Shown: piece by piece, positions 49,947-63,336 of the stretch
Numbering within the stretch: the first letter of the stretch is position 1
Layout: every line of letters starts with the position of its first letter
Source: Amycolatopsis albispora
GTDB lineage: Bacteria; Actinomycetota; Actinomycetes; Mycobacteriales; Pseudonocardiaceae
Direction: 5' to 3'
Length of the DNA stretch: 64,000 nt
Assembly (NCBI RefSeq): GCF_003312875.1
Contig: NZ_CP015163.1
Coordinates: forward strand, 3,596,001 to 3,660,000
Position numbers and translations under genes: made by a program
The notes under the pieces: generated by a model
What the model saw: the letters and a program-made list of their open reading frames with translations, nothing else
What the model was told of the DNA's origin: nothing
Databases searched by the model: none

Positions 49947-52913
49947 GTGTTGGTCCTGCACGGCCTGGGCACCGCGGCCGGTGAAGTCGCGTTGTGGGCC
50001 GAGGACTCGGCGCTGCCCGCGACGGTGAGCGGCCCGCTGCCCGGCGCCGCCGTCGCGCACCCGTTCGCCGTCGAGGACCTGTCCCACCTGGTGCCGGGCG
50101 GCCGGGCCGAGGTCGTGCCGCTGCTGCTGCCGTCGACCGGTGACGGGCCGCTCGCCTCCCCCGAACTGGTCCGCGACCCGCTGGCCGAGCCGGCGCCCCC
50201 GACCGGCGTCCGGCTGGAGCCGTGGCTCGTGCCCGCCGTGGTGCTGTCCCCCGGTGCCGCCGCCGAGGTGCTGGCCGGGCTCACCGAAGCCCAAGTCCGC
50301 CTCGGCAGCTCACCGCACTACCTGCGCCAGGTGACCGCCTTCGCCGCGGACCTGGCCGACCGCGGGCGCGTGCTGCCGGGCCTGGTCACCGGCGTCGGCG
50401 GGCTGCGCGCGCGGTGGCGGCCCGCACTGTCCGGAGTGGACTCGGCACGGTTCGCCAAGCTGGCCGCCGCGATGCCGCCGATCTGCCGCGCGCAGCCCGT
50501 GCGACCCGAAGACACCGACGGCCGTCCGGCTGCCGAGGTGCTCCGCTCGCTGCTCAACGCGCTGACCGACCACGAGGTCCGCGACCGGCTGGACGGGCTC
50601 CAGCTGGCCACCGGCTCCGGCGCGGTCGAGTCCTGGCTGGGCGCGCTCACCGGTGAACCCGGGTTCGAGGCCGACCGCCACGAAGCCCGCGAGCTGCGCG
50701 ACCGGATCGACGCCTGGCACGCCAGCGCCGCGCACGACGCCGCAGTCCGGCTGGGCTTCCGGCTGCTGTCCCCGGAGCAGAACGAGAAGGAGGACTGGCG
50801 GCTGGAGTTCCTGCTCCAAGCCGTCGAGGACCCGTCCGTGCTGATCCCGGCGAGCCAGGTGTGGCGGTCCGGCCAGCACGACGTGCTCAGCCGGTGGATC
50901 CACCGCCCGCAGGAGCTGCTGCTGACCGAACTCGGCCGCGCCAGCCGCCTGTTCCGGCGGCTCGACGACGCGCTCGCCGAAGCGCACCCGGCCGGTCTCG
51001 ATCTCGACGCCGAAGGCGCCTACGACTTCCTCACCCAGGCCCCGGCGCTGGACGAGGCAGGCTACGGCGTGCTGTTGCCGAAGGAGTGGCGGCGTCCCGG
51101 TGACGTCGCGCTCCGGCTCGAAACGCGGAGCAAGTCGGCCACCGGGGTGGTGACGAAGGACCGTCCGCTCGACCTCAAGCAGCTCGTCGACTACCGGTGG
51201 GAGCTGTCGGTGGGCGGGCAGAGGCTGTCCGAAGCCGAGCTGGCCTCGCTCGCCGCCGCGAAGGTGCCGCTGGTCCGCCTGCGTGGCCAGTGGACCCGCA
51301 TCGACCAGCGCGGACTGGCCGCCGGGCTGGCCTTCCTGAACACCAGCCGCCGCGGGGAGATGTCGGTCAGCCAGGCGATCCGGCACCTCGGCGCGAGCCC
51401 GGCGCCGCTGCCGGTCGCGGAGGTCACCGGCGACGGGCGGTTCGGTGAGCTGCTCGAAGGCAAGGCGGGCCGGTTTGTCGAACGGATCGACACGCCGCCC
51501 GGATTCCACGGCACGCTCCGGCCGTACCAGCTCCGCGGGCTCGCGTGGCTGGCCTTCCTGGACGAACTGGGGCTGGGCGCCTGCCTCGCCGACGACATGG
51601 GCCTCGGCAAGACGGTGCAGCTGCTCGCGCTGGAAGCGTTGTGCCGCAAGGACGGCCCGCGACCACCCACACTGCTGGTCTGCCCGATGACGGTGGTCGG
51701 CAACTGGCAGCGTGAAGCCGCGCGGTTCACGCCGGACCTGCGCGTGCACGTCCACCACGGCATCGACCGCGGCCCGGTGCGCGCGGCCGAAGCCGATCTG
51801 GTGATCACCACCTACGCGCTCGCGGCCAGGGACGCCGAATCTCTGTCCGAAGTGGACTGGGACCGGGTGGTGCTCGACGAGGCGCAGAACGTCAAGAACA
51901 GCGCGTCACAACAGGCAAAAGCGGTGCGCGGGTTCACCGCCCGCCACCGCGTGGCGCTGACCGGCACCCCGGTGGAGAACCGGCTCGCCGAACTCTGGTC
52001 CATTATGGACTTCCTGAACCCCGGTTTCCTGGACACCGCCAACACCTTCCACGCGCGGTTCTCGGTGCCGATCGAACGCCACGGCGACCACGAAGCCGCC
52101 GCCCGGCTGCGCCGCGCCACCGGGCCGTTTGTGCTGCGGCGGCTGAAAACCGATCCCGTGGTGATCGACGACCTGCCGGAACGCCTGGAGTTCAAGCAGC
52201 TCTGCACGCTCACCGCCGAGCAGGTCACGCTCTACCGCGCGGTGGTCGACGACATGCTCGACCAGATCGCGCAGGCCGAGCAGATCAAGCGCAAGGGCCT
52301 GGTGCTGGCGACGATGTCCAAGCTGAAGCAGGTGTGCAACCACCCGGCGCACTTCTTCGGCGACGGCTCGGAACTCGCCGGGCGGTCCGGGAAGCTGGCG
52401 CGACTGGAGGAAGTGCTCGAAGAGGTGCTGGCCGAAGGCGACAAGGCGTTGTGCTTCACGCAGTTCGCGCGGTTCGGCGCGATGCTGGTGCCGTACCTGT
52501 CCGAACGCTTCGACACCGAGGTGCTGTTCCTGCACGGCGGCACCAGCCAGCCCGAGCGGGACAGGCTGGTCGAACGCTTCCAGTCACCCGGCGGGCCGTC
52601 GCTGTTCCTGCTCTCGCTCAAGGCGGGCGGCACCGGGCTGAACCTGACCGCGGCCAACCACGTGGTGCACATCGACCGCTGGTGGAACCCGGCGGTCGAG
52701 GACCAGGCCACCGACCGCGCGTTCCGCATCGGGCAGCGGCGTGACGTGCAGGTCCGCAAGTTCGCCTGCGCGGGCACGCTGGAGGAGAAGATCGACCGGA
52801 TCCTGACCGAGAAGGCGTCGCTGGCGCGGCTGGTGGTTGGTGCCGGGGAGCACTGGCTCACCGAGCTGTCCACCGAGAGCCTGCGCGAACTGCTCACCCT
52901 GGAGGCGCCATGA
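49947..52913 (+). CDS. SNF2-family DEAD/H-box helicase (HepA-like)
   Basis: The 988-residue protein has an N-terminal region (about 1-500) including a DUF3670-like SNF2 accessory segment, then the two RecA-like lobes. Walker A is in DDMGLGKTVQ (K555), Walker B is D644-E645-A646-Q647, and the C-terminal lobe has FTQFARFG, LFLLSLKAGGTGLNL and DQATDRAFRIGQ. It is an ATP-driven dsDNA translocase, probably in DNA repair or remodelling. The start is GTG 49947; TAGCGT six bases upstream suggests leaderless expression. The SWIM-finger gene overlaps its stop (ATGA). Confidence 0.9.
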   Translation: MLVLHGLGTAAGEVALWAEDSALPATVSGPLPGAAVAHPFAVEDLSHLVPGGRAEVVPLLLPSTGDGPLASPELVRDPLAEPAPPTGVRLEPWLVPAVVLSPGAAAEVLAGLTEAQVRLGSSPHYLRQVTAFAADLADRGRVLPGLVTGVGGLRARWRPALSGVDSARFAKLAAAMPPICRAQPVRPEDTDGRPAAEVLRSLLNALTDHEVRDRLDGLQLATGSGAVESWLGALTGEPGFEADRHEARELRDRIDAWHASAAHDAAVRLGFRLLSPEQNEKEDWRLEFLLQAVEDPSVLIPASQVWRSGQHDVLSRWIHRPQELLLTELGRASRLFRRLDDALAEAHPAGLDLDAEGAYDFLTQAPALDEAGYGVLLPKEWRRPGDVALRLETRSKSATGVVTKDRPLDLKQLVDYRWELSVGGQRLSEAELASLAAAKVPLVRLRGQWTRIDQRGLAAGLAFLNTSRRGEMSVSQAIRHLGASPAPLPVAEVTGDGRFGELLEGKAGRFVERIDTPPGFHGTLRPYQLRGLAWLAFLDELGLGACLADDMGLGKTVQLLALEALCRKDGPRPPTLLVCPMTVVGNWQREAARFTPDLRVHVHHGIDRGPVRAAEADLVITTYALAARDAESLSEVDWDRVVLDEAQNVKNSASQQAKAVRGFTARHRVALTGTPVENRLAELWSIMDFLNPGFLDTANTFHARFSVPIERHGDHEAAARLRRATGPFVLRRLKTDPVVIDDLPERLEFKQLCTLTAEQVTLYRAVVDDMLDQIAQAEQIKRKGLVLATMSKLKQVCNHPAHFFGDGSELAGRSGKLARLEEVLEEVLAEGDKALCFTQFARFGAMLVPYLSERFDTEVLFLHGGTSQPERDRLVERFQSPGGPSLFLLSLKAGGTGLNLTAANHVVHIDRWWNPAVEDQATDRAFRIGQRRDVQVRKFACAGTLEEKIDRILTEKASLARLVVGAGEHWLTELSTESLRELLTLEAP

Positions 52914-55590: not shown

Positions 55591-56166
55591 ATGGACGTCA
55601 GCCACAAGCAGATTGTCGACTACTGGGCGGCGGTCGAGGACGAATCCGGCCTGGCCGTCGACTGGGCTGAAGCCCACGAACGGTGCTGGCGCTGCGGGTA
55701 TCGGTCCCGCCTGGAGAGATGCCACATCATCCCCGACTCGCTCGGCGGACGCGCTTCGCCGGACAACCTCGTGTTGCTGTGCGGCCGATGCCACCGCGAG
55801 GCACCGAACCATGCGGAACCCGAGTACATGTGGCGGTGGTTGCGAGCCACCTGTGTTCCCTTATACGACACCTACTGGACGATCCGCGGCACAGCGGAAT
55901 TCGAGGTCATGTTCGGCAGGAAACCACTCGAATGCCTGTTGGCGGCCGGAATCGCCGTCGACGAACTGACAGATGGGTTCCGCGCCGTGCTGAAAGACGA
56001 GTTCGCCAGGGCGGTCATCCACTTCGGCGAAGGTCGCCTCAACCCGTCCACCATCGCCTGCATCATGGCCGAAGCCGAGAGGAAGCTGGCACATCACCAT
56101 GGCGTCACCCTCCCGGACGAACCAGTGACCCGGGCAAACCAGTGGATGTTTGGTGCTCGCTCGTGA
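55591..56166 (+). CDS. HNH endonuclease
   Basis: The 191-residue protein has a compact HNH fold (about 30-72): C32-x2-C35, R43-C44-H45-I-I-P-D, N59 and C64-x2-C67-H68 form the zinc knuckles and the His/Asn/His active centre. The rest is helical and unrecognised. A strong ribosome-binding site (GAGGGGGGC) precedes ATG 55591. Its stop overlaps the start of the next gene (GTGA), so the two are one unit. Base composition is visibly richer in A and T than its neighbours. Presumed DNA nuclease, probably in defence. Confidence 0.82.
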   Translation: MDVSHKQIVDYWAAVEDESGLAVDWAEAHERCWRCGYRSRLERCHIIPDSLGGRASPDNLVLLCGRCHREAPNHAEPEYMWRWLRATCVPLYDTYWTIRGTAEFEVMFGRKPLECLLAAGIAVDELTDGFRAVLKDEFARAVIHFGEGRLNPSTIACIMAEAERKLAHHHGVTLPDEPVTRANQWMFGARS

Positions 56167-58193
56167 CCTTGACGATGGCGGACGTTCGGCTCGGTCCGCT
56201 GGCCGGTACCGAACTGACGCTCTGGTGCACCAAGTCCGGACGGCTTTGGCACGGCGACGACACCTGCCCGGGAATGAAGCAGCGAGCACGGCACGTCGTG
56301 CAGAAGCAGCCCCGTAAGGGCTCGTTGGCGGACCTGGTTTCACCCGGGCGGGTGCACTGCGTTCCGCAAGGTCCGCTTGCCGACCACTTCGCCGCGGGAG
56401 AGGCGCTCGTCGATTTCGACGCTCGCACCGACACCCTCGTCCAACTACTGGGAGAGGGCACGGTCGACCTGACCGCTTTCGACCTCGCCACCATCCGGCA
56501 GAAGCACCCGAAGGTGGTCAGGGCGCCGCTCGTCAAGGTGTGGAAGCAGTGTCGCGAGCGCCGGGAATCGTTCCTCGCCGAGCTGGCCGAAATGCTGACC
56601 GAACGGCTACCGGTGATGGTCGCCGCCGCTTGGCTCCGCACCAACGACCGCTCGGAGCAGGACACCAAACATCGCAAGTACGCCAGGTTCGTCGAAATCG
56701 CGGTACGGGAGTTCCAGCCGATAGAACAACTCGAGGAGTGGGACATCCGGTACCTGGCCGGCATCCACGTGCTCCCCAGGTTCCTCGACCTGGTCTGGGA
56801 GGGCGAAAACCCCACCTCGGCAGCCAGGAAAGTCGCTGCTCAGCAAGCCAAGTGGGCACGTCGAGCGGTCGACACGTTGTCAGACTCAGATAAGGCCGAC
56901 GAGAGATGGTCAACTCTCCCGGACCGCGTCCATGAGGTGTGGACCACCACCGCGCTGCTTTGGATCGGCCTTCTCGACGGAATCTGCGCCGCGAACCACG
57001 GTGAGACCTTCGCCCTGTTCCACGAGGACCAGCTCCCGGTGCCAACGTACGCGTTCCATCGGCTGTTCCCCTGCGCCCGAATCAGGACAACCACCTTCAC
57101 CTGGCTCGCTGGAGCCATACCCGCGATCTTCCGGCTGTGCCTGAAGGAGCGCACACGCGGCTTGAACGGCATCGAAGTGGACCCCGAAGATTCCTTCGTC
57201 TACGACCACAAGAGACCCGCCTTGTTCCTGAAAAACCTGTTCACATTGCACGGGTTTCCGGAGTTGGCTCGTTGTGTGGAAAACGTGGCGGCGGACCCAC
57301 CTCGGCACCCTCCGTTCGACGCAAGCAAAATCGACGACTACTTCCGAGGTTTCGGCTACGGCTTGAATGACTACGGGCTCGCCCCCGCGGACTGCCGCTA
57401 TGCAGCTCAGCTGGCACAGGGGGATCGGCGAATTCGCAAGGGTTGGCTCGCCGGTATCCACGACGAGCCGAACGAACCCACCATCTCCGTGGGAGGCCTG
57501 CCCATCGAGGTAGTTCGCTTGCTGGAAAAGGGGAACGCCGCCCAACTGTTGTCCGCGATCCAGTTGCACGTCCGGCGAGACCAGCTGGCCACCGTGCGGG
57601 CGGCCGTCCGGCGGCCCGGCGCCCTGGAGCGGGAGATCCAGGCCGCGCTGAGCGACGCGTGGTGGATGTTCGGGGGTGAGTTCGTCGGCGAAGCAGCACG
57701 GCGCCGCTTGGTGGCCACGGCCGAACTCGACATCCCGCTGCTCCAGCCGGATGGGGTTCTCCACGTCGTGGAGTTGAAGCGAGCCGACGTCCCGGTTGTG
57801 CGAAATCATCGCAATGGCCTCATTGTCGGAGCCGTGGTACACGAAGCCGTCGGCCAGACGATGAACTACTTGACCTTGCTCGACGAACAGCGCACGAGCT
57901 TGCAAATCGAGTTCGGTATCGACACCCGCCGCGCGAGCGCGACCGTGGTCGTCGGCCACCCCGGGTTCCAGCAGAATCTTTCTGCCGCGGAGATCCACGA
58001 GACGTTGCGCATCTTCAACAGCCATCTCAGCCGAGTCGAAGTCATTACCTACCAGCAACTACTCGACCGGGCGGAACGGGTGCTCGATCTGGTGGGAAAG
58101 CCGGACGGGGTGCCTGCCGCTGAAGCAGGCACCCCGTCCGGGAGCGTGACTCAGCTGCAGCCCGAGGTGGCGCCGCAGCCTTCGCAGGCGTAG
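56163..58193 (+). CDS. Large protein with C-terminal Shedu-like (DUF4263) nuclease domain
   Basis: A 676-residue protein beginning at GTG 56163 inside the HNH stop codon (ATG 56175 is an alternative). Residues ~1-60 hold a cysteine-containing module (LWCTKSGRLWH, TCPGM, VHC). Residues ~60-480 are unfamiliar, mostly helical, with two hydrophobic stretches. Residues ~495-610 read as a Shedu/DUF4263-type PD-(D/E)XK nuclease: W500-W-M-F503-G, D523 in AELDIPLL, E537-L-K539 in VVELK, Q565 in VGQTMNYL. Shedu (SduA) is an anti-phage nuclease. The last ~30 residues run into the nrdJ terminator and 3' end, overlapping nrdJ by 43 bases. Function is inferred. Confidence 0.72.
   Translation: MTLTMADVRLGPLAGTELTLWCTKSGRLWHGDDTCPGMKQRARHVVQKQPRKGSLADLVSPGRVHCVPQGPLADHFAAGEALVDFDARTDTLVQLLGEGTVDLTAFDLATIRQKHPKVVRAPLVKVWKQCRERRESFLAELAEMLTERLPVMVAAAWLRTNDRSEQDTKHRKYARFVEIAVREFQPIEQLEEWDIRYLAGIHVLPRFLDLVWEGENPTSAARKVAAQQAKWARRAVDTLSDSDKADERWSTLPDRVHEVWTTTALLWIGLLDGICAANHGETFALFHEDQLPVPTYAFHRLFPCARIRTTTFTWLAGAIPAIFRLCLKERTRGLNGIEVDPEDSFVYDHKRPALFLKNLFTLHGFPELARCVENVAADPPRHPPFDASKIDDYFRGFGYGLNDYGLAPADCRYAAQLAQGDRRIRKGWLAGIHDEPNEPTISVGGLPIEVVRLLEKGNAAQLLSAIQLHVRRDQLATVRAAVRRPGALEREIQAALSDAWWMFGGEFVGEAARRRLVATAELDIPLLQPDGVLHVVELKRADVPVVRNHRNGLIVGAVVHEAVGQTMNYLTLLDEQRTSLQIEFGIDTRRASATVVVGHPGFQQNLSAAEIHETLRIFNSHLSRVEVITYQQLLDRAERVLDLVGKPDGVPAAEAGTPSGSVTQLQPEVAPQPSQA
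58103..58139 (-). terminator. Intrinsic terminator of nrdJ, inside the Shedu-like gene
   Basis: A perfect 15-bp stem (58103-58117 with 58125-58139) with the seven-base loop CGCTGAA begins 11 bases after the nrdJ stop on the minus strand and is followed by CTTTCC. It lies within the last 30 codons of the opposing Shedu-like gene. Confidence 0.85.
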
Positions 58194-61100
58194 CACGAGC
58201 CGGCCGGTCGCATCTTGGTGCCGCAGGTCATGCAGAGCGGCGCATCGGCCACCTTGCCGAGGTGCAGTTCCATCAGCTCGGCGGAGGTCTGCGGCTTCCG
58301 TTCGCTTTCCGGCTCGGCTTCCTCGGCGTAGACGCTGCTGCGCAACTCGTCGAGATCGACCCCTGGCGGCTCGGCGGTGGCCGTGCCGTAGTCGGTGTCG
58401 GCCTGTGCCGCGCGTTCCTCGGCGGTGAAGATGCCGAGCTGCGAACGCTTTTCGTACGGCAGGTAGTCCAGTGCGAGGCGCCGGAACAGGTAGTCGAGCA
58501 CGCTGGTGGCGATCCGCACGTCCGGGTCGTCGGTCATGCCCGCCGGCTCGAAGCGCAGGTTGGAGAACTTCGAAATGTAGAACTCCAGCGGGATCCCGTA
58601 CTGCAGGCCGACCGAAATGGACATGGAGAACGCGTCCATCACCCCGGCCAGCGTGGACCCCTGCTTGCCGAGCTTGATGAAGATCTCGCCGAGCCCGTCG
58701 TCCGGATAGGACCCCGCGTGCAGGTAGCCCTCGGCACCGCCCACGGTGAACGAAACCGTCTGGCTGGGGCGTTTCTTCGGCAGGCGCTTGCGGACCGGGC
58801 GGTACTCGACCTGGGGTGCCTCGGCGGGCTTGTCCGACTTGGCGGTGGACAGCGGCTGGCCGACCTTGCAGTTGTCGCGGTAGATCGCCAGCGCTTTCAG
58901 GCCGAGTTTCCAGCCCTGGAAGTAGATCTCCTCGACGTCGGCGACGGTCGCCGACTCCGGCATGTTCACCGTCTTCGAGATGGCGCCGGACAGGAACGGC
59001 TGCACCGCGGCCATCATCCGCACGTGACCCATCGCCGCGATGGCACGCTCGCCGACCGCGCAGTCGAACACCTCGTAGTGCTCCGGCCGCAACCCCGGCG
59101 CGTCCACCACGTGCCCGTGCTGCGCGATGTACTCGACGATCGCCTCGGCCTGCTCGCCCTGGTACCCCAGCACGGACAGCGCGCGCGGCACCGTCTGGTT
59201 CACGATCTGCATCGAGCCGCCGCCGACCAGCTTCTTGAACTTCACCAGCGAAAAGTCCGGCTCGATCCCGGTCGTGTCGCAGTCCATCATGAAGCCGATG
59301 GTGTTGTGGCTGACAAACCCGTTCGCGACGTAGGTGACGTTCTCCGGCACGGACAGGTCGTAGGTCGGCCGCACCCCGCCGTCCTCATTTGCCGCCACCG
59401 TTTCGAAGAGGTAGCCGAGCGCGTGCCCCAACTGCTCGTCGAGCGTCTCGGCGAACAGCCGCGACGCCAGCCTCCTGGCCACCCCGCCCGTCTTCCGCAG
59501 TGACTGGAGCACCGCGTCGCGGTCCTCGTGCCCCGGCGGCACCAGCGAGTTCCAGCGCTCGGCGGGCAGGAAGACCAGGTCGCGCTTCGCGGACGTGCGC
59601 GGTTCCACCGCCACCACCGCGCGCGACTTGCGCTCACCGATGAAGCCGACCACCTCGTCGAACGCCGGTGCGTGGTCGACGTCGCGCACCCGCACCTGGT
59701 ACTGGGCACCGCCCCGGCCGCTGGTGATCTCCCGCGTGGTCGTCGCCAGGCGCAGGGTCAGCATCATCGAGCGGATGTCTTCGGCAAAGGTCTCCGACGC
59801 CGTGCTCACGCTCGGCACGCCTTCGAGAACCGTGCCGTCCGCCTCGAACAAACCACGCAGGAACGCCGCGTACACGGTCACGTCGTTCGTCTCGCGGATC
59901 GCGGCGGGCACGCGTGGCGTCCAGCCGTTGCCGGTGTGATCGGTGCCGGGCAGGTCCTTGGCGAACCCGGCCGCCCGCCACCAGTTGGCCAGGCGCACGG
60001 AAGCGAACAACACCTCCTGGTGACCGGCGGCCGGGGTGACCGTGGCCTCCACCCCGAACAGCCCCTTGCCCAGTACCCGAAGTCGCTCGACCACGTCGAG
60101 ATCGGCGTCCGCGACGCGGAACCGAAGCCCCTCGGCGTGCAGGCTTCCCTCGCCCATGAAGTAACCGGCCAGTTCGGCCAGGTCCTCGTCGACGAAGCCG
60201 GGGACCACCGTGGTCCGGTCGCCCTCACAGGCCTGGTCCAGCACCGGCATCGCCACCCGGCGCGGTTCGCCGACCAGCCCGCCCAGTTGCAGCGGCAGGA
60301 CGTCACCGGAGCGCACATCGGCGAGCCGCTTCCACACCCAGGCTCCGTTCTCGACCACCTTCACCCGGTGGGCGAGGGTGCCCTGGATCCGGTACCCGCC
60401 CGCGGTGACCAGCCGCCGGGTCGGCTCCTCGCCGTTGACGAAGAACCTGGTCGCCCGGCGCGGTCCTTCGTCGGTCGCGACGGTGAAGTCGACGTCCTGC
60501 CAGCGATCGCCGTACACCTCGCCCAGCTCGGACAGCCGGGCGAGCCCGCGGTCGGTGGTCACCAAGGTGTCGGCGGTCAGGCAGCCGGTCGGGGCGAGCA
60601 CGCTCGCCTGGGCGTTGCGCCAGCCGTGCTCGGTGCCGATCTTGATGCCGCGGTGCCACTCCTCGGAGGCGAGCTTGCGCACGGCGGCGTCGGTGGTGTG
60701 GTAGGTGCGGATGAGCTCGTTCGCGGCGGCGTGCTTGCGCATCACCCGCTGGTGCGCCTCGGCGTTGCGCGCGTAACCCTCGTACGGGCCGACCACACCG
60801 GCCAGTTCGGCGGAGCGGCGGTAGGACACGCCGGTCATCAGCGAGGTGATCGCCGCCGCGAGCGCGCGGCCGCCGTCGGAGTCGTAGGCGTGGCCCATCG
60901 CCATCAGCAGCGCGCCGAGGTTGGCGTAGCCGATGCCGAGCTGGCGGAACTTCCGCGTGGTGTCACCGATCGGCTCGGTCGGAAAGTCGGCGAAGCAGAT
61001 GGAGATGTCCATCGCGGTGATCACGAACTCGACCGCGCGGGCGAACCGGTTGGCGTCGAAGGTGCCGTCCTCGCCGAGGAACTTCAGCAGGTTCAGCGAA

Positions 61101-63301
61101 GCCAGGTTGCAGCTGGAGTTGTCCAGGTGCATGTACTCCGAGCACGGGTTGGACGCGGTGATCCGGCCGGACTCGGGGCAGGTGTGCCAGTCGTTGATGG
61201 TGTCGTCGTACTGGATGCCGGGGTCGGCGCACTCCCAGGCCGCCTGCGCCATCGAGCGGAACAGCTTCTTCGCCTCGACCTCGGTGACCACCTCGCCGGT
61301 CTGCCTGGCGCGCAGGCCGAAGGTGGTGTCGGCCTCGACCGCCTGCATGAACTCGTCGGACACGCGCACCGAGTTGTTGGCGTTCTGGTACTGCACGGAG
61401 GAGATGTCGGCACCGGACAGGTCCATGTCGAACCCGGCGTCACGCAGGACGCGGATCTTCTGCTCTTCCCTGGCCTTGGTCTCGATGAACTCTTCGACGT
61501 CGGGGTGGTCGACGTCGAGCACCACCATCTTCGCCGCCCGGCGGGTGGCCCCGCCCGACTTGATGGTGCCCGCGGAGGCGTCGGCGCCACGCATGAACGA
61601 AACCGGGCCGGACGCCGTGCCACCGGAGGACAGCAGTTCCTTCGACGACCGGATGCGCGACAGGTTCAGGCCCGCGCCGGAGCCGCCCTTGAAGATCAGG
61701 CCCTCTTCGCGGTACCAGTTCAGGATCGACTCCATCGAGTCGTCCACGGCGAGGATGAAGCAGTTGTGCACGCGAAGGTTCCCGGCAAGGAACTCCCCGC
61801 TGTCGGTCTGGATGTCGTAGACCTCCATCGGCCCGAGGTCCTCGATGCGCGCGATCTCCAGCCGCTTGGTCGGCTTGGCGGGCCTGCCCGGCCGTTCCAG
61901 GCTCGCCTCGAGCTTCGCCGACTTGCGCTCGTCGACGAAGCCGATCTCCGCCGCGAAGATCTCCCAGTCACCCCGGTTCTGGATCCGCAGCGACCAGCAG
62001 CCGTGCCGGTTCGGCCGGGGGTCGGCCTTCTTCGCCACCCGCGAGAAGATGCCGAAGCGCAGCAGGAGGTTCTGCACCCCGCGGACCAGTTGCTCGCAGA
62101 TCATGTCCATGCCGACCAAAGTGGACCGCTCGCGATCCGAGACATAGCCCTCGGCCTGGAACAGGCTACGCAGGTACGCGGCCACCACGGGCAGCGGCGC
62201 GGTGTACAGGCGCGCCGGGACCGTCATGGCCGCACCGCGGGTACGCAGGCTCCAAGCATCCACAAAGGACTGGAGATGGTTGCCGCAGAGCCGGGTGCGA
62301 CGACAGTCCAGTCCCTCGTCTTTGGTGACCACTGACCGTTCGTGGCGGTGCGCTCCCGGGAACACCCGGTCGAGGGCGTCGGTCACCCAGGCGAGCTCCG
62401 CGTCGTTGACGGTCATCGCCTCGATGGTCAGGGACCGGTTCGTGCCCTCGTAGCGTCCGACGAACCCATCGGACTGCAGCCAACCCGCCAGCGCCGCTTC
62501 GGCGATCTCGCGCTGATCGATCTCCCGCTCACCGAACGAGCGGACCCGGTGCCAGTCGAGCTGGTCCCCCGGGCGCAGCGTGCCCGCTTCGACGAACTCG
62601 CCGCCGGTGGCACTCGTCGCCTTCCAGACCAGGTGATCGGCGGTGACGTCCAGCGTGTACCCGGCCTTGGTGTGCACCCGGTGGACGTTCTTGCGGCCGT
62701 TGGCCTTGGTGGCCACCACGCCGGTGACGCCGTGTCCGTCGTAGACCTTCGCCCCGACCGCGTCCGTGTCCACCAGTTCCCCGATCGGCACCAGCCCGGT
62801 GGGTGTACTGACCAGGGCGTGGTACGGCAGGCAAGCCGAGACCTGCTGCTTCGAAGCGGTGCCGACGTTGAACCAGACCGGGGAGTTGAAGCTGAACACC
62901 TGGTGCAGCAGCATCCAGGTGAGCTCGTGCTCGAAGATCTCGGCGTCGGCCGGGGTGGCGAAGTAGCCGTGCTCGGTACCGGCGCGGACGTAGGTGCCGA
63001 CCACGCGGTCGATCAGCTGCTTCAGGCTGCGCTCGCGCTGCGGGGTGCCGACCGCGCCGCGGAAGTACTTGCTGGTCACGATGTTGGTGGCGTTCACCGA
63101 CCAGAACGCGGGGAACTCCACGCCGCGCTGCTCGAAGTTCACCGTGCCGTCGCGCCAGTTCGTCATCACGACGTCGCGTTGTTCCCACTCCACCTCGGCG
63201 TACGGGTGCACGCCCTCGGTGGTGAACACGCGGCGGATGCCGAGCCGGCCGGGTTGCCGCTGCTCAACGGCGTCCGCGCCGGTTCCCACGGTTTCGGTCA
63301 T
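58151..63301 (-). CDS. nrdJ: Class II (B12-dependent) ribonucleotide reductase with two inteins
   Basis: NrdJ makes deoxyribonucleotides from ribonucleotides without oxygen, using adenosylcobalamin. The precursor is 1716 residues (ATG 63301, AGGGAG five bases upstream; GTG 63307 is an alternative). Two inteins of 357 and 427 residues leave a mature enzyme of ~932, the usual length. Extein landmarks: QVSA|CFILAVDD, the active-site finger NPCSE with DNSSCNLASLNLL, APTG|TIGFMMDCDTTG, and a C-terminal zinc motif CMTCG...CYACEGCG. It is transcribed after nrdR. Splicing of both inteins is required for activity because each sits in a conserved active-site strand. Confidence 0.95.
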   Translation of the reverse strand: MTETVGTGADAVEQRQPGRLGIRRVFTTEGVHPYAEVEWEQRDVVMTNWRDGTVNFEQRGVEFPAFWSVNATNIVTSKYFRGAVGTPQRERSLKQLIDRVVGTYVRAGTEHGYFATPADAEIFEHELTWMLLHQVFSFNSPVWFNVGTASKQQVSACLPYHALVSTPTGLVPIGELVDTDAVGAKVYDGHGVTGVVATKANGRKNVHRVHTKAGYTLDVTADHLVWKATSATGGEFVEAGTLRPGDQLDWHRVRSFGEREIDQREIAEAALAGWLQSDGFVGRYEGTNRSLTIEAMTVNDAELAWVTDALDRVFPGAHRHERSVVTKDEGLDCRRTRLCGNHLQSFVDAWSLRTRGAAMTVPARLYTAPLPVVAAYLRSLFQAEGYVSDRERSTLVGMDMICEQLVRGVQNLLLRFGIFSRVAKKADPRPNRHGCWSLRIQNRGDWEIFAAEIGFVDERKSAKLEASLERPGRPAKPTKRLEIARIEDLGPMEVYDIQTDSGEFLAGNLRVHNCFILAVDDSMESILNWYREEGLIFKGGSGAGLNLSRIRSSKELLSSGGTASGPVSFMRGADASAGTIKSGGATRRAAKMVVLDVDHPDVEEFIETKAREEQKIRVLRDAGFDMDLSGADISSVQYQNANNSVRVSDEFMQAVEADTTFGLRARQTGEVVTEVEAKKLFRSMAQAAWECADPGIQYDDTINDWHTCPESGRITASNPCSEYMHLDNSSCNLASLNLLKFLGEDGTFDANRFARAVEFVITAMDISICFADFPTEPIGDTTRKFRQLGIGYANLGALLMAMGHAYDSDGGRALAAAITSLMTGVSYRRSAELAGVVGPYEGYARNAEAHQRVMRKHAAANELIRTYHTTDAAVRKLASEEWHRGIKIGTEHGWRNAQASVLAPTGCLTADTLVTTDRGLARLSELGEVYGDRWQDVDFTVATDEGPRRATRFFVNGEEPTRRLVTAGGYRIQGTLAHRVKVVENGAWVWKRLADVRSGDVLPLQLGGLVGEPRRVAMPVLDQACEGDRTTVVPGFVDEDLAELAGYFMGEGSLHAEGLRFRVADADLDVVERLRVLGKGLFGVEATVTPAAGHQEVLFASVRLANWWRAAGFAKDLPGTDHTGNGWTPRVPAAIRETNDVTVYAAFLRGLFEADGTVLEGVPSVSTASETFAEDIRSMMLTLRLATTTREITSGRGGAQYQVRVRDVDHAPAFDEVVGFIGERKSRAVVAVEPRTSAKRDLVFLPAERWNSLVPPGHEDRDAVLQSLRKTGGVARRLASRLFAETLDEQLGHALGYLFETVAANEDGGVRPTYDLSVPENVTYVANGFVSHNTIGFMMDCDTTGIEPDFSLVKFKKLVGGGSMQIVNQTVPRALSVLGYQGEQAEAIVEYIAQHGHVVDAPGLRPEHYEVFDCAVGERAIAAMGHVRMMAAVQPFLSGAISKTVNMPESATVADVEEIYFQGWKLGLKALAIYRDNCKVGQPLSTAKSDKPAEAPQVEYRPVRKRLPKKRPSQTVSFTVGGAEGYLHAGSYPDDGLGEIFIKLGKQGSTLAGVMDAFSMSISVGLQYGIPLEFYISKFSNLRFEPAGMTDDPDVRIATSVLDYLFRRLALDYLPYEKRSQLGIFTAEERAAQADTDYGTATAEPPGVDLDELRSSVYAEEAEPESERKPQTSAELMELHLGKVADAPLCMTCGTKMRPAGSCYACEGCGATSGCS
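59303..60583 (-). other. Intein 2 of NrdJ (427 residues, homing endonuclease)
   Basis: It starts with CLTADTLV (C1), has block B TLAH, ends with GFVSHN and is followed by Thr as the +1 residue; removal restores APTG-TIGF. Two LAGLIDADG-type motifs, ELAGYFMGEG and LRGLFEADG, lie ~110 residues apart, so a homing endonuclease is included. The first motif has Glu in place of the usual Asp, which may keep or weaken cutting. Confidence 0.9.
61763..62833 (-). other. Intein 1 of NrdJ (357 residues, homing endonuclease)
   Basis: It starts with CLPYHALVSTPTG (C1), has block B VTADH, ends with NLRVHN and is followed by Cys as the +1 residue; removal restores QVSA-CFIL. LAGLIDADG-type motifs ALAGWLQSDGF and YLRSLFQAEGY lie ~110 residues apart. 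Splice residues (C1, TxxH, HN, +1 Cys) are intact. Confidence 0.9.
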
Positions 63302-63336
63302 GGGCACTCCCTCGTTCCGGCACGGAACGGCGAGCC

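Follow-up and report, generated by a model that had tools for sequence, protein, structure and literature searches.

Shedu nucleases combine a shared core with a varying N-terminal part that is thought to set what is sensed. Here we examine a Shedu-type gene and the HNH endonuclease gene that overlaps it in a 64,000-nucleotide stretch of Amycolatopsis albispora DNA (NZ_CP015163.1, positions 3,596,001 to 3,660,000, forward strand), the whole of which we call the window. The original prediction, made from the sequence alone, took the two genes for a candidate two-gene defence system; it was right that known Shedu is a single-gene nuclease. In Escherichia coli SduA the N-terminal part forms a clamp that binds to DNA ends and releases the nuclease, according to the available portion of PMC12904381, and Shedu proteins with diverse N-terminal domains are already described in the available portions of PMC12137116 and PMC12839542, for example the Vibrio cholerae protein VcSduA (Shedu type I-D), with its GHKL ATPase N-domain. 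As far as these sources go, the core principle, a Shedu nuclease with an exchanged N-terminal domain, is known, and the new part here is the specific N-terminal module. We conclude, with a probability of about two in three, that this is a single-gene Shedu in which a swapped 421-residue sensor/restraint module and a linker precede the nuclease core, with a non-obligate HNH neighbour, at a turnover-prone site next to nrdJ.

The 676-residue protein is a Shedu (SduA) by core family and by fold. At residues 489-634 it matches PF14082 (SduA_C; E 8.8e-12; 45.9 bits, cut-off 27), and at residues 446-642 the PADLOC SduA model PDLC00401 (E 3.8e-82); the latter alignment takes in 200 of the 404 profile positions (49.5%), all in the second half of the model. 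The PADLOC cut-off for Shedu is E 1e-25 plus 50% alignment coverage (PMC8565338, available portion); the E value passes, and whether the 49.5% does would depend on the way in which PADLOC counts coverage. Structure comparison found the Shedu nuclease fold in the C-terminal part, so that the PD-(D/E)XK core predicted for the last third of the protein is supported by profiles and fold alike. The residues singled out in that prediction (W500/F503, D523, E537-x-K539 and Q565) are correctly placed and invariant in all seven rows of alignment A2, the window among them; from the invariant catalytic residues the core is predicted to cut. The open reading frame is intact, and its ratio of nonsynonymous to synonymous substitution (dN/dS) is well below 1.

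The N-terminal module is a rare protein that is also made alone in other genomes and that has no Pfam family. It aligns over its full length with stand-alone proteins of about 450 residues at about 24-35% identity, and a profile search (7999 candidates scored) found nine proteins of 344-460 residues that carry the module without a Shedu core (P0131-P0139). Stand-alone genes are intact at L091, L092 and L093; L091 adjoins a recombinase gene, L094 adjoins a GmrSD-type gene, and the contig of L092 carries an integrase gene elsewhere. A model of residues 1-422 (mc2000a5aeae5; predicted local distance difference test score, pLDDT, 89; predicted template modelling score, pTM, 0.85) shows a small N-terminal beta part, a long-helix bundle and an alpha/beta part. 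Pfam scans gave no family and comparison with the PDB no clear match, as the original description of a long, unfamiliar N-terminal region had it; the module is also absent from the Shedu literature covered, in so far as its text was available and with the two main Shedu papers outside it. The "cysteine module" of the original description is better described as H30-x4-C35 ... H65-C66, a candidate metal site. Across 17 aligned rows these four residues are kept 15, 15, 14 and 15 times; the exceptions are P0010 and P0139, which both begin later, and for H65 also P0011, which has Cys there; C22 is kept in just 7 of the 17. Over six pairs the module has 2.1-2.8 times the dN of the core (0.218 against 0.083 for window and G538), which may be expected of a sensor under changing pressure and equally of any less constrained domain. 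The G538 copy is interrupted by an in-frame stop at residue 429, just beyond the module.

The module is unmatched by fold or family in the Shedu structures of E. coli (8ps4, 8ps5) and Bacillus cereus (8ti8, 8ti9), and unlike these the window gene has an HNH gene overlapping it upstream. The closest cores, at 44-50% identity in the best segment, belong to actinobacterial SduA proteins (PDLC00401; L004, L005, L008), which align with the model from its first part onward and have an N-terminal part of about 200 residues where the window protein has the module instead. VcSduA (available portion of PMC12137116) follows the same plan, with a large exchanged domain ahead of the Shedu core, whereas the window module has neither GHKL nor any other Pfam domain. 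By analogy with the DNA-end-binding clamp of E. coli SduA, we propose that the module and flexible linker, taking the place of the ordinary N-terminal part, most likely keep the nuclease inactive; a phage-linked signal or DNA structure would contact the module and release the nuclease, and the PD-(D/E)XK core would then cut DNA. The HNH gene would share the turnover-prone site without being an obligate partner in this presumed anti-phage role.

A search of 5.8 billion proteins (7995 candidates scored) returned eight relatives of the 676-residue protein besides itself, and all five with an organism name are from actinomycetes. Our searches of genome sets scored the best two or three candidates per genome, so that Shedu counts are lower bounds. 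Matches to the Shedu protein occur in at least 53 of 390 Pseudonocardiaceae genomes; four of these, the window genome and G538, G516 and G400, match over the full length, and G402 has a decayed copy. An order-wide sample of 397 genomes gave matches in at least 19, full-length in the window alone. In G456, of the window's genus, a C-terminal Shedu scar lies beside nrdJ with the rest of the gene missing (L090:8166-8285). All six of these loci are convergent to nrdJ. Far-side flanking genes are common to the window, G400, G402 and G338, some with extra genes between, which indicates that the site is one slot. The peptide encoded by an inverted repeat at the end of the window gene also ends P0004, P0005, P0006, P0008 and P0010 (not P0007 or P0009); judging from this ending, these five probably sit at the same place beside nrdJ, as confirmed for P0010, the G516 copy. 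The window Shedu protein is 74% identical to that of G538 and 68% to that of the congeneric G516, with the opposite order for NrdJ (81% and 87%). The nrdJ synonymous distances to the window (0.43 for G538, 0.52 for G516) contradict this trend in protein identity, and intergenus exchange of Shedu is therefore not established.

The proposal of a two-gene HNH and Shedu system is not supported: co-conservation, on which it had staked itself, was not found in the genomes searched. At a threshold of E 1e-15, 22 of 386 Pseudonocardiaceae genomes have an HNH orthologue, and the window alone has this Shedu beside it. Conversely, the 390 genomes searched gave four with full-length Shedu and one with a decayed copy, and of these five it is again the window alone that has HNH beside it, in a count that leaves out the loci of the database relatives P0004, P0005, P0006, P0008 and P0009. 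An obligate pair is not supported by these genomes. Septu, composed of the ATPase PtuA and the HNH protein PtuB, was rejected, since Pfam at E 1 finds no ATPase domain in the 676-residue protein. The HNH gene most likely stands independently of Shedu and shares the slot with it, and we infer that it is probably co-transcribed with Shedu in the window genome.

Several observations weigh against a single-gene Shedu with an incidental neighbour. The GTGA shared by the HNH stop and the Shedu start suggests translational coupling, and the use of the same slot is above chance for two unrelated genes. Further, of the five Shedu copies found at this slot two, those of G538 and G402, are interrupted or decayed, and two of the five stand-alone module loci match in two different frames (L094, L095), from which it appears that Shedu and the stand-alone module are being lost in places. 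The overlap and the common slot in the loci examined could reflect an ancestral HNH-Shedu defence unit, later split by differential loss, in which HNH nicks invading DNA and the breaks activate Shedu. The mixture in genus g2, where window-like flanks enclose HNH only (G338), Shedu only (G400) or decayed Shedu only (G402), would also fit, as would the scar in G456 and the intact HNH motif of the window. Even so we consider such a unit unlikely: Shedu is kept at none of the 21 other HNH loci and HNH at none of the four other Shedu loci. HNH and any Shedu core occur together in four genomes (G000, G578, G586, G591), where about three are expected if the genes are independent (22/386, 53/390), and in all of these save the window they are on separate contigs. 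Outside Pseudonocardiaceae, no Shedu relative was found in the available flanks (short downstream of L126) of seven HNH loci (two actinobacterial, four viral and one plasmid).

The 191-residue HNH gene, with an HNH motif in a stand-alone gene, is by its sequence one of the free-standing HNH nucleases, a widespread family. Its protein matches PF01844 (E 2.4e-9), PF14279 (E 2.6e-8) and phrog_7370 (E 2.3e-11), and its motif is complete (C32, C35, C44, H45, N59, C64, C67, H68). There are 376 homologues; among the best 120, proteins of Nostoc, Geobacter, Gallionella and Undibacterium have 56-60% identity, and in 103 of the 119 other than the window the motif is complete at all eight positions. In a phylum-wide sample of 346 genomes there are three bearers, counting the window. 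Six matches are in viral contigs, four of them clear members (L123-L126, 39-58% identity), and those of L124-L126 have genes for exonuclease, helicase, methylase, PhoH or SMC-like proteins nearby. Between SEC-C and AbiH genes of an Enterococcus hirae plasmid (L103:8001-8482) lies a relative without a listed gene, aligned in two pieces. Two distant actinobacterial relatives (L129:8429-9046, L130:8342-9700) are each within about 1 kb of a gene recognized by eye as peptide deformylase-like.

The family also raises the question of homing: HNH could be a free-standing homing-type endonuclease with a site at or near nrdJ, its cutting driving turnover and Shedu a passenger. All 22 Pseudonocardiaceae HNH genes converge on nrdJ, from a distance of at most about 0.8 kb save in the window, where the Shedu gene intervenes, and viral relatives sit among DNA-metabolism genes. 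Fixed homing endonucleases tend to degenerate, and some loci fit this course. In genus g11 only one of 17 loci keeps both H45 and H68, 16 being without one or both (L098, L100, L101, L131-L142, L144); outside g11 the motif is kept at all five loci, two of which (G083, G398) match in two frames. Phage T4 mobE, which lies between nrdA and nrdB with a start-stop overlap and codes for a free-standing HNH homing endonuclease (PMC2988022, available portion), is a functional parallel, and phage free-standing HNH proteins (phrog_7370) share with the window gene the motif, small size, viral-contig relatives and a ribonucleotide reductase neighbour. They differ in that the window-family gene is chromosomal, lies by nrdJ in 22 bearers of one bacterial family, has lost motif histidines in most g11 loci and is only putatively homing. 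We find homing distinctly improbable, as the seven loci outside the family have no NrdJ relative in their available flanks (class II query), the inteins of the window nrdJ do not occur at the other loci compared, and a single insertion passed on vertically accounts for the position. Moreover, eight g11 loci share the motif CCHLNCCV with dN/dS of 0.07-0.32 (28 pairs), not neutral decay; this altered form seems maintained, and it is possible from these sequences that g11 HNH is a domesticated, nuclease-dead protein.

A more elaborate version, to which we give little credence, makes the module an immune sensor with a fold not described before and an H-C/H-C metal site, used alone or fused to Shedu, with HNH breaks licensing Shedu in a facultative relay whose HNH half later became nuclease-dead beside nrdJ in Lentzea. 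That the Shedu gene was acquired, now has no function and is in decay is hardly credible: low G+C, a tail encoded across the inverted repeat and antisense nrdJ, and the decayed or interrupted G402 and G538 copies would suit it, but the window frame is intact under dN/dS well below 1 with its catalytic residues kept, and the five database relatives sharing the inverted-repeat peptide show that the tail is no mark of decay.

The single-gene Shedu and its HNH neighbour are laid out in Table 1; both reading frames, their lengths and the GTGA overlap were reproduced as first reported. The placement against the end of nrdJ also stands as adjacency, although the genes do not merely abut: the Shedu stop codon falls within nrdJ, a 43-bp convergent overlap, and the last ~30 residues of the protein come from the 17-bp inverted repeat and antisense nrdJ. 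A terminator scan requiring a T run reported nothing at this repeat. Recounting upheld the claim of low G+C (58.3% over 57301-57360, 76.7% over 50461-50520); the HNH-Shedu unit has 64.3% and the window as a whole 70.5%, with no lower value in any non-overlapping 2603-bp stretch (window sampled every 100 bp). The window nrdJ codes for two inteins (inserts ~61775-62830 and 59303-60478, with LAGLIDADG and intein-splicing domains), both missing from the other nrdJ genes compared.

Table 1. Features of the HNH-Shedu locus, in window positions.
Feature	Position	Strand	Basis or remark
HNH endonuclease gene, 191 aa	55591..56166	+	PF01844, PF14279 and phrog_7370 matches; homologues; motif table
Shedu/SduA-type gene, 676 aa, start codon GTG at 56163	56163..58193	+	Open reading frame, PADLOC, Pfam, relatives
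N-terminal module, residues 1-421	56163..57425	+	Alignments A4 and A7, stand-alone relatives, structure model
Candidate metal site H30-x4-C35 ... H65-C66	56250..56360	+	Column counts; metal binding putative
Linker, residues 422-445	57426..57497	+	422-444 at pLDDT <50
SduA PD-(D/E)XK core, residues 446-645	57498..58097	+	Profile matches, fold
Catalytic motif D523 ... E537-L-K539	57729..57779	+	Invariant in 7 rows of alignment A2
C-terminal tail, residues 646-676	58098..58193	+	647-676 at pLDDT <50; encoded by inverted repeat and antisense nrdJ
Perfect 17-bp inverted repeat, presumed transcription terminator	58101..58141 (arms 58101-58117/58125-58141)	.	Just past nrdJ stop
nrdJ (class II ribonucleotide reductase), convergent neighbour marking the slot	58151..63307	-	Two inteins in window genome

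A large, confidently modelled module that occurs both fused and alone, and that matches no family, offers a putative sensor that can be tested apart from its nuclease. The slot beside nrdJ, where two nuclease genes are gained and lost and an altered HNH is seemingly maintained, makes a tractable case of defence-gene turnover and possibly of domestication.
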